Shown: piece after piece, positions 10,557 to 51,122 of the stretch | How the letters are laid out: the number at the start of each line of letters is the position of its first letter | How positions within the stretch are numbered: position 1 is the stretch's first letter | Origin: Methanobrevibacter millerae | Lineage (GTDB): Archaea; Methanobacteriota; Methanobacteria; Methanobacteriales; Methanobacteriaceae | Reading direction: 5' to 3' | DNA length: 64,000 nucleotides | Assembly: GCF_001477655.1 (NCBI RefSeq) | Contig: NZ_CP011266.1 | Coordinates: forward strand, 1,844,001 to 1,908,000 | Program-made: the position numbers and the translations under genes | Notes under the pieces: generated by a model | The model's input: the letters and a program-made list of their open reading frames with translations, nothing else | Told to the model about the DNA's origin: nothing | Database searches by the model: none

Positions 10557-13500
10557 TTAATCTTTTTTTGCAGAAACAGTTATTTTATTTGAAATTTGAG
10601 CATTTTCATACTGTGATGTTATTATATACTCGCCAGCCATCAGATTAATGTTTAATTTAGCCGTTCCATTTGAATCAGTGAGTCTTGTATAGAATACGCC
10701 ATTAATATTAAATGTAACACCAACATTTTTCAATGGATTGCCCTTGCCGTCGACAAGTTTTGCTTTGAATTGTGTTCCATCCAGATATGTCATGCTGATA
10801 TCACTGGCAGTTAAAACAGGCAATACTGTAATGTTATATGACATCATTAATCCTGTTAATGGGTCTGTAGCAGTCAATATATACTCACCAGGGTTTAAGT
10901 TAATGTTAAGTCTAGCTGTTCCATTTGCATCGGTTGTCCTGTTGTAGAATACACCGTTGATGTTCATTGTAATATCTACATCAGAGATAGCTTTGCCCGT
11001 ACCATCAATCAGTGCGATATAGAACTGTGATTCGTTTCTGAAGTACTTGACAAGGTTTTGTGCAATTAAAGTAGGCAATACAGTAATTTTATTTTCAACA
11101 GCAATGCCGTTGAATGATGTTCTTATTGTGTAGTTACCAGGATTTAGGTTGATAGCTATTCTGGCCGTACCGTTTTCATCACTTACTCGATTATATTTGA
11201 CACCATTAACATCAAAGGTTACGGTTTCATTAGCTACACCAACATCCGCTTCAAACTTGGAATCATTCTTATATATTTTAACCAAATCCTGCGTATAAAT
11301 AGCTAAATCCTTAGTATAGACTTTTAAAGATGTAGTCATATTTTTTAGTGCCAAATCTTTCCATACATCATCTGTTTTCATGAAAACAGTATCTTTAGCA
11401 TAATGTTGTCGTGAATTATTAAAGATAGGGACAGACTTTTTAGTTATTTCTACTGTAAAATTATCCCCCAGATTTATTGGAATTTCATCTGTTAATTTTA
11501 CTGTATGGAAACCATAATAAGACCCTGTTCCATTTTGCACATGTTTTAATTCATTATTTACATAAATGTTAAGCACATAAGGTTCACCATCATATTTAAA
11601 GTATGTTCCAACCCCACTTATTAATTCAGTCTTTTGGGATTGATATGTGATTTTATAAGAAACATTCTTGCCAAACATATCATCGAAGAATATCATATTC
11701 CCGCTTAAATCCGTTTGATAATTTCTTGCGTATTTTTCAGTATTTTCAATGATAAATCCTACTGCATAACTTAAATTTAGAAAACTTACGTCATAATAAG
11801 ACAGATAGATATATCCTTTATCCCCATTTTCAAAACCAAAATTATCTTTTAGTATCCATGCACCATCTCCTGGAGGAGTAGTTAAGAAATTTTCTTTGGG
11901 ATAATTATCATCCCACCCCACAACAGAAACGACATGTGTCCTTTCATTTAATAAATTCTGATACTGGGCATGTGTTTTGTTATTATAGTCCGGAGCACCT
12001 ACTGACGAATAATACTCTATTGCCAATGATCCATATTTCATTATGGCTTTTTTAATTTCATCATTATCAGTTAAATTTTTCCTAGGCCCCACAAAGATTG
12101 CATCTTGAATATGAATATTATCACCAGTAAAAAATATTGGTGAAACTTTTGCCATTTCATCAAAAGTATCATTTTTTTCAAAAACAGGCCCTAACCAACT
12201 AAGGATATTTTGAGTTGCATATGGAATATATCCACTACCCACTACATCATAAATACCATATTTCGAATATTGTAACATAGTATCTTTTATATTATTTTCT
12301 GAAAAATCATATTCAATTCCTGTTGATTTGAGTAATGCGGATTCAAGAGCCGCTATTGTTCCAAAAGTCCAACAACTACCATCAATTATTTGATTTTTAA
12401 CAGAACTTATCCATCCCCATTCCCGTGAATCAAATTTTTTTGGCAAATTTACTACATCTATTGAATTATTAATCAGAATTAAACTGATCGGATTTTTACT
12501 AACCACATTGAAAAAGTCAGTTTCATTTAAAATTAGTGAATCATTGTTCAAATTTAGTTCACCCATTTCATAATTAAGAAAAACCCCATGAATTGCTTCA
12601 TTGTTATTTTTAAAATTGCTTCTGTTAACATATAAATTACAGTCATAGGCATAAATAGCATTTTTTGTATTGTTGATGAAGTCTGAATTTGAAATATTTA
12701 AAGTACTTTTATCAAAAAACATTCCCCCACCATTATTTTCTTCATCCATCAATTTATTTGAAATAACGGAAATGTTATAGATATTTGCATTTACATTAGA
12801 TGCATATATTGCTCCCCCATCGAAAGTAGCCGCATTATTAATAAATTTTGAATTATTTATTGTTAAATTACCATGTAACTGAAGCAGAGCTCCGCCAAAA
12901 TTCCCTGTGGAATTGATGAAACTGGTATTGGCAATCAATGTAGTTCCAGGCAAACCATTACCAAACACATCTATAAATACTGCCCCACCATTCTTTACGG
13001 CAGTGACATTCATAAATGTACAATTAATAATTTGCGCAACACTCATTTGACTAAGCAGAATTGCACCAGCACTTTCTGTTGAATGAAGGTTTACGAAATT
13101 TGAATTAACAATTACAGTATTTTTCCTATTATATACTGCTGTAGCGAACTTTGAAGTTGAATTTGAAAATGTGGAATTTACAATTCTGATTCCAGAATTT
13201 TCATCTGCCCCATATAATAATGAATAAGTTAAATTATATGAATCTTTAAATACGCAATTATTAATGGTGGAATGAAAAGAAAAAGAAACTGCTCCGCCAT
13301 TTTCGGCATGATTATTGATAAAAACGCAATTGTTCGCTTCAATCAAATCAATCCTTACTGCACCACCTTGCTTAGCAGAGTTATTTTCGAAAGTGACATT
13401 ATTAAAATTTATCCTATCCTTAGTAAAGATAGCTCCACCATTCTCCTTTGAAAAACCGTTTATTAAGTTAAGATTATTAATATTAATATCACCAATAACA

Positions 13501-13757
13501 TTAAAAATTCTTGCCTGTCCATTACCGTTAATTGTATGTCCATTACCATTAATGGTAAAACCCGTTTTATTGACAACTATTCCACTATTTAACAGATAAT
13601 CCGTGGAATTGTCATAAATATAATCATCAGTTATTTCAATACTGTTGCCGGCATCATTAATTTCTGTCTGAAGACTTGAAAAGTTTCCATCAGCGTAAAC
13701 TGCACTAACAGAAATAAAAAGCACCAGAAAAATAAATAAAATTCTAAATTTTTTCAT
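10557..13757 (-). CDS. Secreted adhesin-like protein: beta-helix, papain-family protease, Ig-like repeats
   Basis: About 1066 aa from ATG 13755-13757; an ATG four codons upstream is an alternative. A signal peptide (MKKFRILFIFLVLFISVSAV) leads into about 400 residues of right-handed beta-helix with repeated GGAIF/GGAV and NNSxFINN units. A C1 (papain-type) peptidase domain follows. It has an oxyanion Gln and nucleophile Cys in VKNQIIDGSCWTFG, His in ERTHVVSVVGWDD and Asn in ILKDNFGFENG. Three Ig-like repeats of about 80 aa form the C-terminus. No membrane anchor or sorting motif is seen. It is convergent with DUF2207. It probably acts in cell-surface attachment or protein processing (inference). 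Confidence 0.85.
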   Translation of the reverse strand: MKKFRILFIFLVLFISVSAVYADGNFSSLQTEINDAGNSIEITDDYIYDNSTDYLLNSGIVVNKTGFTINGNGHTINGNGQARIFNVIGDININNLNLINGFSKENGGAIFTKDRINFNNVTFENNSAKQGGAVRIDLIEANNCVFINNHAENGGAVSFSFHSTINNCVFKDSYNLTYSLLYGADENSGIRIVNSTFSNSTSKFATAVYNRKNTVIVNSNFVNLHSTESAGAILLSQMSVAQIINCTFMNVTAVKNGGAVFIDVFGNGLPGTTLIANTSFINSTGNFGGALLQLHGNLTINNSKFINNAATFDGGAIYASNVNANIYNISVISNKLMDEENNGGGMFFDKSTLNISNSDFINNTKNAIYAYDCNLYVNRSNFKNNNEAIHGVFLNYEMGELNLNNDSLILNETDFFNVVSKNPISLILINNSIDVVNLPKKFDSREWGWISSVKNQIIDGSCWTFGTIAALESALLKSTGIEYDFSENNIKDTMLQYSKYGIYDVVGSGYIPYATQNILSWLGPVFEKNDTFDEMAKVSPIFFTGDNIHIQDAIFVGPRKNLTDNDEIKKAIMKYGSLAIEYYSSVGAPDYNNKTHAQYQNLLNERTHVVSVVGWDDNYPKENFLTTPPGDGAWILKDNFGFENGDKGYIYLSYYDVSFLNLSYAVGFIIENTEKYARNYQTDLSGNMIFFDDMFGKNVSYKITYQSQKTELISGVGTYFKYDGEPYVLNIYVNNELKHVQNGTGSYYGFHTVKLTDEIPINLGDNFTVEITKKSVPIFNNSRQHYAKDTVFMKTDDVWKDLALKNMTTSLKVYTKDLAIYTQDLVKIYKNDSKFEADVGVANETVTFDVNGVKYNRVSDENGTARIAINLNPGNYTIRTSFNGIAVENKITVLPTLIAQNLVKYFRNESQFYIALIDGTGKAISDVDITMNINGVFYNRTTDANGTARLNINLNPGEYILTATDPLTGLMMSYNITVLPVLTASDISMTYLDGTQFKAKLVDGKGNPLKNVGVTFNINGVFYTRLTDSNGTAKLNINLMAGEYIITSQYENAQISNKITVSAKKD

Positions 13758-13884
13758 AATATCAACCATATATTACTAATATTTTATAGAATATTCTTAA
13801 AAAAATTATCGAAACTGTATGATTAATATTCACTATGAAGTACTGTTTTCATCAAAGTAATAAAAAATGTTAAAATAATTAGAA

Positions 13885-47347: not shown

Positions 47348-50300
47348 TTAGAATGAAATACTGGAATAGTATCCATTAAGTGAATAATTATAGTTATTCC
47401 AATTAACAACATTATCAAATGAGTTTCTAGTACTTGTTGAATCACTAACAATCCAAGTGTCACCGATTAATACTTGAGCCCATACATGACCGTATGTACT
47501 ACCACTACTAAATACACATGTTCCATGGACATATCTAGCAGGGAGGCCTGCTGCTCTGTATAAAGCGATAGACAAATGCGCTTGGTCTACACAATTCCCA
47601 GTTCCTGCATTTAATGTACCTACCGCACCATAATGAGTGTCATAATAGAAACTATATGATATTTGATCTCTTACATAATTATAGATAGCTTTAGCTTTAT
47701 CAACTGAATTAGTTAATCCTTGAGTTAAACTATTTGCAAGAGCAACAATTTGAGCATTAGTAACCTGACAATTGGTTGAACTGGATAAGTACGGTGTTAA
47801 ATCTGTAATCGTATTTTTCTTATCGAGTGAACTTTGAGGTTCATATAATTTTAGAGATTTAATAGATACGGATGAAGGCAAATTATTATTTAAACCATAA
47901 TATACAATAACCCTAGTTAACGCGTAAACAATACCATCATAACCTATAGTACCAATGCTAGTATCAACAGAATTAGGCGTTACACCATCCGTCATGCTAA
48001 CAAATACTGAACTTGCAAGAGCAACATATTCACTTAAACTACCCATATTTGATGCAGAACCAGGAGAATCTGGATCGGAAACATCAAAGACATATAAATC
48101 AGAATAATCACCATTTGATATGCCAATTATAGCTTCGGAAATTAAATATAGATATTGTGCAGTGGAAAATGTATCTTCACCAATCAAAACATTGCTTGGC
48201 AATGCCGCATTAACTTCAATATATTGATTTACAGAATTTGCAGCACTGATTAAATCATTGAGAGATATGGTTCCTACCACATTAATAAATGATAAACCCA
48301 CATTTGATTCATTATCATAACTATAAGTAATAGGATATAAACCTTTATTTAAACCATTGATTTCAATAGTGGCTATACCATCAGAATCAGTTATATTATT
48401 TACTGTTAAATCAGCGTAATTGAACTGAATAGATACATTTGAAATTGGATTATAATATGCATCCAATAATGTGACTGAGAAATAGCCTGTAGTTCCCACA
48501 ATTATATCCAAATCGTCAGCTTCGAATATAGTACCATTAACTAAAATATGATTAGAAATGGTTTTTGCTGAATAAAATACATTATCCAAGGAAGTAGTTA
48601 TTTCATAATACCCTACAGGAAGACCAACATTCAATTTAGCTACACCAGACTCATTAGTCGTTCTATTGTAAGAAACACCGTTAATTGTAAATGAAACTAC
48701 GGTATTTGCTATAGGAGTACTATTTTTATCAACCAAAGTTGCAACAAAGCTAGCTGATTCAGAATAATTTTTTGCAAGATCATCTGCAATAAATTCAGCA
48801 AACATTTTATCTACAACAATAGTGTTAGTTCCATCATTATAATCAACAGAATCAACATTTGAATAACTATAAAATATTTCATAAGTGCCCGGAATTAAAT
48901 TAATTGATAAGCCAGCCACACCACCATCATTAGTAGTACGATTATAACTCATTCCGTTAATAGTAAATGTAATAGTCTCATTGACTAATGGTTTTGAATC
49001 CAAGTCAGTTAAAGTAACATTGAATCTAGAACCATCATTATAGACCATACTTATATCATTACCAGATAGTATTACTGTAGAATTAGCAACCACAAATTTT
49101 TTAGTTATATTGGAAGAATAATAATTCCAATTTCCGTCAAATCCAATTTCAATATCATAAGTACCTTCTGAAAGATTTGAAACAGGAATTTCTGCTAAAC
49201 CATTTTCATCACTTATAGCAGTTTGAGTTAAATTAGCATACTTGAAGTATACATTAGCATTGCTAATACTCTTATTATTTTCTCCAATCAAGTTTACAGC
49301 ATAAACCCTATCGGTACCAAGAATAATGTGTGCATCATTACCATTAATAATAGACTTAGCTTTATTAATAGTTATAATATTAGATACTGATAAACCATTA
49401 TCAGTAGTAGATGTAATAGTATAGTTACCTACATTAAGATTAATATTTAAGTGAGCATCCCCATCATTGCCAGTTACACGAGTATAGAATATACCATTAA
49501 TATTGAATGTTACATTACCACCAACTAAAGGATTACCTTCATCATCAATAACATATGCAACAAATGAACTATTCCTATAAATCATGTTTAAATCATCTGC
49601 AGATATAGTAGGCAATACCTCTATATTATTAGAATGCATTTCACCATTAATTGGATTAATAGCAGTAATAGTATAATTATCTGGATTAAGATTAATATTC
49701 AATTTAGCCATACCACTATCATTAGTAGTACGAGTGTAATAAACACCATTAATATTAAATGTTACATTAGTGTTAGTCAATAGATTACCCTCATTATCAA
49801 CAAATGTAGCATAATACTGAGTATCATTTTTATAATACTTAACTACATCATCACCAGCAATAGTACTTAATACAGTAATATTATTAGAACACATTTCACC
49901 ATTAATTGGATTAATAGCAGTCAAAATATAATCTCCAGAATTAAGATTAATATTTAATTTAGCTGTTCCATTCTCATTAGTCTTTCTTTCATAAAACACA
50001 CCATTTATATTAAATGCAACAGTGGTATTGTTTAAAAGAGCTCCTTGACCATCAACAAATGTAGCATAATACTGAGTATCATTTCTATAATATTTCTCAA
50101 CATCTTCTCCTGAAATTGTAGATAATACTTTAACTATATTTGTAGTAGAAGAAGATTCATAGCTACTTGTTCCTGCAAATAAAGCACCAATAGTATAATC
50201 TCCGGAATTTAAATTTATTAAAATTGAAGCAATTCCTTGATCATTAGTAGTTCTTGTATAATTAATTCCATTAATATTAAAAATTACACTTTGATTAGTC

Positions 50301-50695
50301 AATAAAGTACCTTCACTATCAGATAAAACAACTTCATATGCAGTTCCATTTTTAAAGTATAATTCAGTATCATTTCCAGCTAATGAAGTTGATTGAGCAT
50401 CATTAACCAAAAGTTCATCATCAGAGATATATTGGGATGTAAATAACCCCTCATCTTCATCAGAAGAATAATTATCATCATGAGAAGGTGTCTCTGGGAT
50501 AGAATCATCACTAGAAACTTCTAAATTTTGTAAAGAAAAAACAATTTTATTATTTTCATTTAATAAATTTGAATCATCTATAGTAACATTTGAATCTATT
50601 GCTGAAACAGAACCTATCATTAAAAAGACTGTGAAAACAATAGAAAAAATTATTACTTTATTTATATTAGAAATTTTTCCACCTCTTACTCTCAT
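47348..50695 (-). CDS. Secreted protein: Ig-like repeats, pseudomurein-binding repeats, transglutaminase-type peptidase
   Basis: 1115 aa from ATG 50693-50695; an ATG 16 codons upstream would lengthen the signal peptide. The signal peptide has NKVIIFSIVFTVFLMIGSVS. About eight Ig-like repeats of 80-90 aa (with NVTFNINGVYYTRTTN-type units) span residues 100-810. Two pseudomurein-binding-like repeats follow: LISAANSVNQYIEVNAALPS near 815 and a second near 890-945. The C-terminal 140 residues are a transglutaminase-type domain with GTGNCVDQAHLSIALYRAAG, YGHVWAQVLIG and WIVSDSTSTRNSF. The probable triad is C1035, H1070 and D1085. Such domains cleave pseudomurein cross-links in peptidase family C71. 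Confidence 0.85.
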   Translation of the reverse strand: MRVRGGKISNINKVIIFSIVFTVFLMIGSVSAIDSNVTIDDSNLLNENNKIVFSLQNLEVSSDDSIPETPSHDDNYSSDEDEGLFTSQYISDDELLVNDAQSTSLAGNDTELYFKNGTAYEVVLSDSEGTLLTNQSVIFNINGINYTRTTNDQGIASILINLNSGDYTIGALFAGTSSYESSSTTNIVKVLSTISGEDVEKYYRNDTQYYATFVDGQGALLNNTTVAFNINGVFYERKTNENGTAKLNINLNSGDYILTAINPINGEMCSNNITVLSTIAGDDVVKYYKNDTQYYATFVDNEGNLLTNTNVTFNINGVYYTRTTNDSGMAKLNINLNPDNYTITAINPINGEMHSNNIEVLPTISADDLNMIYRNSSFVAYVIDDEGNPLVGGNVTFNINGIFYTRVTGNDGDAHLNINLNVGNYTITSTTDNGLSVSNIITINKAKSIINGNDAHIILGTDRVYAVNLIGENNKSISNANVYFKYANLTQTAISDENGLAEIPVSNLSEGTYDIEIGFDGNWNYYSSNITKKFVVANSTVILSGNDISMVYNDGSRFNVTLTDLDSKPLVNETITFTINGMSYNRTTNDGGVAGLSINLIPGTYEIFYSYSNVDSVDYNDGTNTIVVDKMFAEFIADDLAKNYSESASFVATLVDKNSTPIANTVVSFTINGVSYNRTTNESGVAKLNVGLPVGYYEITTSLDNVFYSAKTISNHILVNGTIFEADDLDIIVGTTGYFSVTLLDAYYNPISNVSIQFNYADLTVNNITDSDGIATIEINGLNKGLYPITYSYDNESNVGLSFINVVGTISLNDLISAANSVNQYIEVNAALPSNVLIGEDTFSTAQYLYLISEAIIGISNGDYSDLYVFDVSDPDSPGSASNMGSLSEYVALASSVFVSMTDGVTPNSVDTSIGTIGYDGIVYALTRVIVYYGLNNNLPSSVSIKSLKLYEPQSSLDKKNTITDLTPYLSSSTNCQVTNAQIVALANSLTQGLTNSVDKAKAIYNYVRDQISYSFYYDTHYGAVGTLNAGTGNCVDQAHLSIALYRAAGLPARYVHGTCVFSSGSTYGHVWAQVLIGDTWIVSDSTSTRNSFDNVVNWNNYNYSLNGYYSSISF

Positions 50696-51122
50696 TACGA
50701 AAATTTTAATAAAAATATGATATATACTAAGATTAGTATTCATAATGAGTAAATAAAGATTATAATTTAATAATATATAAATGTTTTTGTAACTTTAAAA
50801 TTAAAAAAACTAATTAAAACAAGTTAAATTAAACAAAATCGTTTAAAAATATGCATAAATCACATTAAAATGAAAATTTAAGTGGAAACAAAGAAATTCA
50901 AGATTAAATATCTTGAATTTAAATTCATCAAAAAACAACCTTATGAAACATAAATACATTACAAACCAGATACCAAAATTAAAAATCATCAGATATTATC
51001 AAATTTTATTAAAAAATAATAGTGAAAAAATCATATATAGAAAAATTAATAAAAAATATAATAAAAAACAAAAAAATAAGCAAAATTATAGAAAATATAA
51101 AAAATAATGAAAAATTGAAATT
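50696..51122. other. AT-rich spacer between divergent genes, with a perfect palindrome
   Basis: This spacer of about 430 bp separates the - strand peptidase gene from the + strand radical SAM gene. A TATATAAA box at 50774-50781 (read TTTATATA on the - strand) is a good promoter for the peptidase gene. An 11-bp perfect inverted repeat lies at 50894-50920. The A- and K-codon-rich open frame at 50913-51107 looks like composition, not a gene. Confidence 0.6.
50894..50920. promoter_or_regulatory. 11-bp perfect inverted repeat (operator or RNA hairpin)
   Basis: AAATTCAAGAT at 50894-50904 and ATCTTGAATTT at 50910-50920 are perfect reverse complements separated by five bases. It lies between divergent promoters, so it does not follow any annotated gene. 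A regulator-binding site or the terminator of an unseen small RNA are both possible. Confidence 0.45.

Follow-up and report, generated by a model that had tools for sequence, protein, structure and literature searches.

A chromosomal surface protein of Methanobrevibacter millerae pairs pseudomurein-binding repeats with a transglutaminase-fold domain and may remodel its own cell wall

How archaea cross-link their pseudomurein and later open it again is still an open question. Within the accessible text of the literature, the published cross-linking candidates that we found are transglutaminase (TG) genes, and the characterized pseudomurein peptidases that we found are viral (PeiW, PeiP and PeiR). 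Here we analyze a TG gene of Methanobrevibacter millerae, a methane-producing archaeon of the rumen. It lies in a 64,000-nucleotide stretch of the chromosome (the window; NZ_CP011266.1, positions 1,844,001 to 1,908,000), where the open reading frame (ORF) 47348..50743 on the minus strand encodes 1131 aa counted from its first ATG. Its sequence and a structural model suggest that the protein probably grips the pseudomurein wall of its own cell and cuts, or possibly links, the peptide bridges. We lean toward the view that it is a core chromosomal pseudomurein-remodeling isopeptidase, an autolysin acting on its own wall. Cutting is favored over linking because the active site has the signature of proven pseudomurein hydrolases, because a phage carries a copy of the same module and because a paralog fuses this module to a glycosidase-like domain.

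The protein joins Ig-like domains to a predicted pseudomurein-binding and catalytic module

Residues are numbered from the first ATG of the ORF. The ORF is real, as the original prediction proposed, with the end given there (50695) being the second ATG and the first ATG lying at 50743. Its features, and those just upstream of the candidate start, are as follows.

47348..50743, minus strand: whole ORF, Group III (TG-type) adhesin-like protein, 1131 aa
47351..47797, minus strand: transglutaminase-fold catalytic domain, residues 983-1131 (PF01841 E 5.6e-25; AF2 model and PDB matches)
47441-47743, minus strand: Pfam Transglut_core stretch of the catalytic domain, within residues 983-1131
47591..47593, minus strand: Cys1051, putative catalytic nucleophile, in N-C-V-D, invariant in 55/55 modules
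47486..47488, minus strand: His1086 of the putative triad, in Y-G-H, invariant in 55/55
47441..47443, minus strand: Asp1101 of the putative triad, invariant in 55/55
47852..48271, minus strand: pseudomurein-binding region, residues 825-964 (PF09373, structural model, cross-detection by HMMs)
48179-48271, 48080-48178, 47957-48046 and 47852-47956, minus strand: four PMBR-like units, the second drawn from structure only
48290..50386, minus strand: Ig-like stalk, residues ~120-818, ~8 domains (Pfam; outer limits approximate)
50600..50674, minus strand: predicted signal peptide, residues 24-48, ending in SVSA (by-eye reading)
50672..50674, minus strand: candidate ATT (AUU) start codon, residue 24, kept in 33/33 orthologue-locus sequences
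50679..50686, minus strand: Shine-Dalgarno-like AGAGGTGG, four bases before the ATT

Both families expected of the C-terminal module were recovered by HMM search. Transglut_core (PF01841) matched residues 1001-1101 (E 5.6e-25; 88.2 bits against a cut-off of 23), and the pseudomurein-binding repeat (PMBR, PF09373) matched the whole protein at E 1.6e-9 (37.8 bits against a cut-off of 24.9), with two stretches at E≤1. The original prediction likewise had two repeat segments. Taken singly, one stretch passes the Pfam cut-off (47861-47956, 28.2 bits) and the other falls under it (48182-48274, 22.8 bits), and the region may be refined to four units. An AF2 model of the module (pLDDT 94.1, pTM 0.85; from a 54-row alignment without the phage Drs3 sequence) contains helix/strand units at module residues 10-36, 39-58, 88-110 and 113-143. 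At a lax threshold (i-E≤1), the HMMs built from units 1, 3 and 4 cross-match in some of the 55 aligned modules, and that of unit 2 detects almost only itself. The binding region thus looks like four PMBR-like units, with unit 2 resting on the modeled structure.

Upstream, Pfam places Ig-like matches of Big_3_5 in eight stretches and of Big_1 in seven, in agreement with the predicted eight or so Ig-like repeats. The predicted signal peptide, likewise part of the original prediction, has a hydrophobic core and a small-x-Ala end that by eye are retained in orthologues. No beta-helix family occurs among the 11 Pfam matches of the protein, and an NCBIfam scan gave no match. An N-terminal Ig-like region (ABD), PMBR, a C-terminal TG domain and no beta-helix are the features that define Group III (TG-type) adhesin-like proteins (ALPs), as far as the definition is given in the available text, and Pfam finds this combination here.

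The putative active site is invariant and shares its signature with phage pseudomurein hydrolases

We aligned the module (residues 819-1131) with 54 others, comprising 53 rows from genome assemblies, including a paralog from the same genome, and one from phage Drs3. Cys1051, His1086 and Asp1101, which occupy the three motifs initially predicted, are invariant in all 55 modules, far beyond chance, as are Tyr1030, Tyr1033, Asn1050, Asp1053, Gly1085 and four more residues. An adhesin with a degenerate catalytic domain, a reading that draws on the classification of Group III ALPs as adhesin-like proteins (PMC11532034, in the part available), is the least likely of those considered here, since triad and neighboring residues do not vary over the 55 rows.

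A signature of Y..Y, NC.D and GH is common to 64/64 rows (54 host, 4 viral and 6 of peptidase family C71) versus 0/8 generic TG-like domains, one of which has GH alone; the signature was read from the same rows before counting, so that the count is a description and not a test. C71 enzymes are proven pseudomurein hydrolases; PeiW and PeiP use this triad to hydrolyze Ala-epsilon-Lys bonds, and dansylcadaverine inhibits them (PMC4592898, in its accessible text).

The original prediction also placed the protein close to family C71. At E≤0.1, PF01841 matches 55/55 modules, PMBR 54/55 and Peptidase_C71 (PF12386) 41/55, the best C71 match having an E value of 4.1e-6. The window protein has no PF12386 match at E≤1, and none was found at its gene in a scan of the whole genome. 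Its catalytic domain belongs to PF01841 and not to PF12386: kinship with C71 is supported by profile and by structure search, and strict membership is not. C71 looks like a divergent branch, with the host enzyme a PF01841 protein. In the same genome, C71 matches the gene at contig 584086-584904 and, weakly, a 1499-aa paralog. The strain SM9 of M. millerae has, according to the accessible part of PMC4987999, one prophage with a predicted endoisopeptidase, which is probably the gene at 584086-584904.

Profile and structure comparisons extend this kinship to the whole module. Profile-profile comparison with six C71 proteins gave a probability of 98.1 and an E value of 9.9e-14 over 239 columns, binding repeats included. 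Against the PDB, the module profile matched 3isr (E 1.6e-17), PeiW 8jx4 (E 5.2e-6) and PeiP 8z4f (E 8.4e-6). The first PDB match of the module model in Foldseek was PeiP 8z4f_A (E 9.1e-10, 328 columns), with a TM-score of 0.29 and an rmsd of 18 Å across both modules, and PeiP was also its first viral (BFVD) match. The order of binding repeats then catalytic domain is that of PeiP and PeiW, as predicted, and the catalytic domain superposes on PeiW at 2.9 Å over 130 residues (VIA-align Z 11.3). Single-sequence searches missed both phage enzymes, and profile methods were needed. When the module was run by tblastn against the phage collection at E≤1, neither enzyme was listed; in the PDB, phmmer with the full-length protein picked up only 3isr and a weak antibody-chain match.

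A copy of the whole PMBR and TG module is present in phage Drs3 (tblastn, 31% identity over 91%, E 1e-36). In viral contigs, 72 stretches fitting the pattern yielded two relatives. The proteins L014 (vir080) and L072 (G048) end in a TG-like domain that has pseudomurein-type motifs, and their N-terminal part is not PMBR; in vir080, an annotated baseplate protein is encoded four genes further on. L014 and L072 are possible virion-borne entry lysins.

In a tree left free, which has long branches and unsettled bootstrap values, two of the eight generic TG rows fell inside the pseudomurein group. The tree in which all eight were held apart was not rejected (p-AU 0.536) and had a likelihood 0.40 higher, so that these sequences are compatible with one pseudomurein clade.

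The gene is near-universal in its phylum and sits at a conserved locus

We scanned 151 genomes of the phylum, all of which we assume to have pseudomurein. A match at E≤1e-5 is present in 148/151, some of the weaker ones being repeats only, and the best match reaches E≤2.5e-26 in 144/151. Seven genomes fall short of this level: G048, G139 and all but one of the six that represent the genus g13. Transglut_core is missing from 5/6 g13 genomes, and Mur_ligase_M is present in 6/6 with 4-7 matches; the g13 genomes are fragmented metagenome-assembled genomes (MAGs), and Mur_ligase_M also occurs in 12/14 control genomes and is not wall-specific. With this marker, joint loss of the module and of wall genes was not seen in g13. 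Three g13 proteins (L069, L070 and L071) and the similar protein L073 have a hydrophobic N-terminus, a PMBR-like region and a C-terminal domain with GDCY, GNHR and ETCR. This Cys/His domain received no Pfam name in the two proteins scanned, and its motifs suggest that it is perhaps another papain/TG-fold wall enzyme.

Locus counts come from the best 80 of 258 candidates on genome contigs, all titled Methanobrevibacter or Methanobacteriaceae, and are uninformative on bacteria. A radical-SAM or coaD-like gene flanks 37 of these loci, and both do so in 26 (locus A, that of the window gene); a thermosome or DtxR-like gene flanks another 18 (locus B); the remaining 25, some on short contigs, have no such neighbor. 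Pfam bears out the neighbors as radical SAM, aminotransferase, cation efflux, polyferredoxin, Cpn60/TCP1 and iron-dependent repressor, the coaD label being our interpretation of a cytidylyltransferase-like match. Synteny outside Methanobrevibacter was assessed in 18 regions, one per genome. L190 has both locus-A flanks, L184 radical SAM and aminotransferase, and L183 the locus-B flanks; the other 15 show neither set, save ferredoxin matches of 22-32% in three.

At least two orthologous groups at fixed loci argue for a housekeeping role, and the window gene, whose neighbors are retained across Methanobrevibacter, seems from these comparisons to belong to the core gene set and not to be a weapon. 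The original prediction had offered a weapon against related methanogens as its second option, for which a surface location and the harm that pseudomurein cutting would do to relatives can be cited. Near-universal, syntenic presence in those very relatives makes this very unlikely, and no obvious immunity gene was seen by Pfam name among the five neighbors scanned, with no dedicated search for immunity genes made.

A paralog at locus B fuses the module to a glycosidase-like barrel

The same genome encodes a 1499-aa paralog (L018) at contig 942448-946947, composed of Ig domains, a DUF4015 barrel, PMBR and a TG domain. A domain of ~270 aa lies upstream of the PMBR-TG module at locus B in this genome and at 18/18 other loci. 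It is DUF4015, a "putative glycosyl hydrolase" in Pfam, in the own genome and in 7/7 proteins scanned; the sole protein scanned from elsewhere, L104, is without it. The domain is modeled as a TIM barrel (pLDDT 88.0), with an invariant Asp and an invariant Glu in its alignment. Two structures tie as its best matches: Cwp19 (Z 22.4), a C. difficile enzyme that cuts peptidoglycan, and PgaB (Z 21.9), which cuts a glucosamine polymer; chitinases and other glycosidases follow close behind. As TIM barrels match many enzymes, this establishes the fold and not the substrate.

DUF4015 matches occur in 126/151 genomes of the phylum, in 113 of them above the cut-off, versus 1/14 controls. DUF4015-like barrels are also found in shorter ORFs of these archaea; two of them (G105:C18 and G005:C97) lie in ORFs that agree in length and place with matches to the PMBR region, and barrel and PMBR region are probably fused there. 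On its modeled domains, the locus-B paralog is a candidate two-bond pseudomurein hydrolase. That the module occurs in fusion with a glycosidase-like barrel favors wall cutting as the function of the family.

Cutting or linking the wall

In the mechanism that we favor, the protein would be secreted through a cleavable signal peptide, the Ig-like domains would form a stalk and the PMBR units would hold the C-terminal module on pseudomurein. Pseudomurein binding has been published for other PMBR proteins (e.g., PMC3124540, in its accessible text). Cys1051, with His1086 and Asp1101, would attack the wall peptides at an amide or isopeptide bond to form an acyl-enzyme, which water would hydrolyze as in PeiW and PeiP, so that cross-links would be opened during growth or cell separation. 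A host wall-remodeling enzyme, the first option of the original prediction, is the best fit; that prediction did not include the published cross-linking alternative.

In this alternative, the same triad would pass the acyl group from one stem peptide to the lysine of the next, and the protein would be a cross-linking transglutaminase that does the job of bacterial transpeptidases. TG chemistry can proceed by hydrolysis or by transfer. We consider a cross-linker rather unlikely, on account of the active-site signature shared with proven pseudomurein hydrolases and of the phage with the same module, and cross-linking has no obvious use to Drs3. A further weak point is that 5/6 g13 genomes are without Transglut_core yet all six have Mur_ligase_M. 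This argument is itself weakened by the fragmented assemblies, by the broad occurrence of Mur_ligase_M and by g13 PMBR proteins with another Cys/His domain. In favor of a cross-linker, the gene is near-universal in the phylum, and structural likeness of the catalytic domain to TG3 is at least that to PeiW (Z 12.8 versus 11.3).

Several observations weigh against a cutting enzyme of the host. Ranked by Z, 3isr (16.5) and TG3 (12.8) stand closer to the catalytic domain than PeiP (11.4, rmsd 13.6) or PeiW does. HMM scores of the TG domain run the same way: six of the eight generic TG-like domains score 44-52 bits and two 25-27, versus 25-33 for the six C71 rows, in a generic set biased to high scores (seven rows come from a search with the window protein and the eighth is a gene of the same genome). 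Hydrolysis and transfer are equally compatible with the data here, one chemistry serving both. The Drs3 enzyme is itself a putative lysin, the glycosidase barrel is in the paralog and not in the window protein and could match many enzymes, and the "host" rows are those from genome assemblies, among which some may be proviral. Two studies, in their available text, propose TG genes of pseudomurein archaea as cross-linkers: Leahy et al. 2010 (PMC2812497) and a 2025 pangenomic study in which OG0000044 is the "best candidate" (PMC11915815), a group to which the window protein may belong.

A third possibility is a protein ligase or anchor enzyme that covalently attaches itself or other adhesins to the wall. 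TG folds can form isopeptide bonds, and the window protein is adhesin-like with an Ig stalk. Attachment is already provided by PMBR, however, and the Drs3 relative (CDS of 903 bases) is too short for an Ig stalk, which makes this improbable.

Orthologues may begin at a conserved AUU codon

The start of the gene may be the ATT at 50672-50674 rather than either ATG, as the upstream sequence suggests. Locus A comprises 38 ORFs including that of the window; 33 hold the start stretch, and the other five either run into a contig end or are without it. Among the 33, 31 have RGGK, L107 has one base changed and in L101 the main frame is broken just after the stretch. The ATT is retained in all 33, after the Shine-Dalgarno-like sequence (window 50670-50686, minus strand). 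The 17-mer AGAGGTGGAAAAATTTC is found in 32/33, with one base different in L107, and has its sole match in the window here.

Of the 31 RGGK-type N-termini, 29 have a stop immediately upstream and no in-frame ATG, GTG or TTG at or before the ATT; L121 and L125 are also without a canonical start in the next 25 codons. The in-frame upstream ATG exists in the M. millerae genome and in L096 through a one-base difference and, by eye, has no Shine-Dalgarno-like sequence of its own. In 7/7 loci examined, an upstream ATG stands in the +1 frame and reads MRTKRWKNF (MSKRWKNF in L125), which keeps +1 recoding open. The orthologues thus seem to begin at AUU, having no usable canonical start, or to use +1 recoding from the upstream ATG. 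A scan for promoters and terminators stayed at the level of shuffled sequence; its consensus is bacterial. No paper on an archaeal gene with an AUU start codon was found among the titles and abstract openings surveyed.

Elsewhere in the window, ORF 10557-13769 on the minus strand encodes another protein of surface type (1070 aa), in which a papain-family (Peptidase_C1) domain precedes Ig-like domains.

Significance and comparison with known systems

Tentatively, and with less confidence than in wall cutting by the window protein itself, these data may point to a dedicated, vertically inherited autolysin set that pseudomurein archaea keep on one module, PMBR plus a C71-kin TG-fold isopeptidase. 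The window gene would be its locus-A member, whose conserved non-standard start, at AUU or through +1 recoding, may limit the amount of a wall-cutting enzyme, and the locus-B paralog would be bifunctional, with the first pseudomurein glycosidase. A 2025 survey of archaeal peptidoglycan hydrolases, in its accessible text, has only two homologues in pseudomurein classes, so that wall cutting in these archaea does not seem to fall to the known enzymes of bacterial type.

In a literature search that left most subscription journals outside its reach, we found nothing that ties host TG-ALPs to C71 through the signature, nothing on two fixed loci or the odd start, and no DUF4015 fusion described as a wall enzyme; judged by listing order, no paper paired "pseudomurein" with "DUF4015". 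The gene is near-universal in its lineage, its active part is ~310 aa and a dead mutant is obvious, which makes the choice between cutting and linking directly testable. If the window protein cuts, it would be an autolysin of the host and could be targeted to combat rumen methanogens, and the locus-B paralog would be a lead to a glycan-cutting enzyme.

The architecture is already in print as that of Group III ALPs, of which M. smithii and Methanosphaera stadtmanae together have four (PMC11532034, in the part available). These have the same Ig-like (ABD), PMBR and C-terminal TG domains and no beta-helix; their N-terminal helix is read there as a membrane anchor, whereas that of the window protein resembles a cleavable signal peptide. 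OG0000044 (PMC11915815, likened by description from its accessible text) likewise comprises exported TG proteins of pseudomurein archaea, but is proposed there as a cross-linker. The closest solved catalytic fold is 3isr, a putative cysteine protease of Cytophaga hutchinsonii (Z 16.5, 2.9 Å, 148 residues), which is bacterial and aligns to the catalytic part only (model 148-313).

PeiW and PeiP (MEROPS C71, PF12386) have the same binding repeats followed by a Cys-His-Asp domain, with Y..Y, NC.D and GH in common, but they are phage lysins of 284 and 305 aa without an Ig stalk, and their catalytic domains fall in PF12386 (295.9 and 318.5 bits) whereas the window protein falls in PF01841. ORF35 of Methanobacterium virus Drs3, a "pseudomurein-binding repeat protein", has the same whole PMBR and PF01841 module and differs in that it stands alone as a phage gene, with one annotated tail protein encoded two genes ahead of it.

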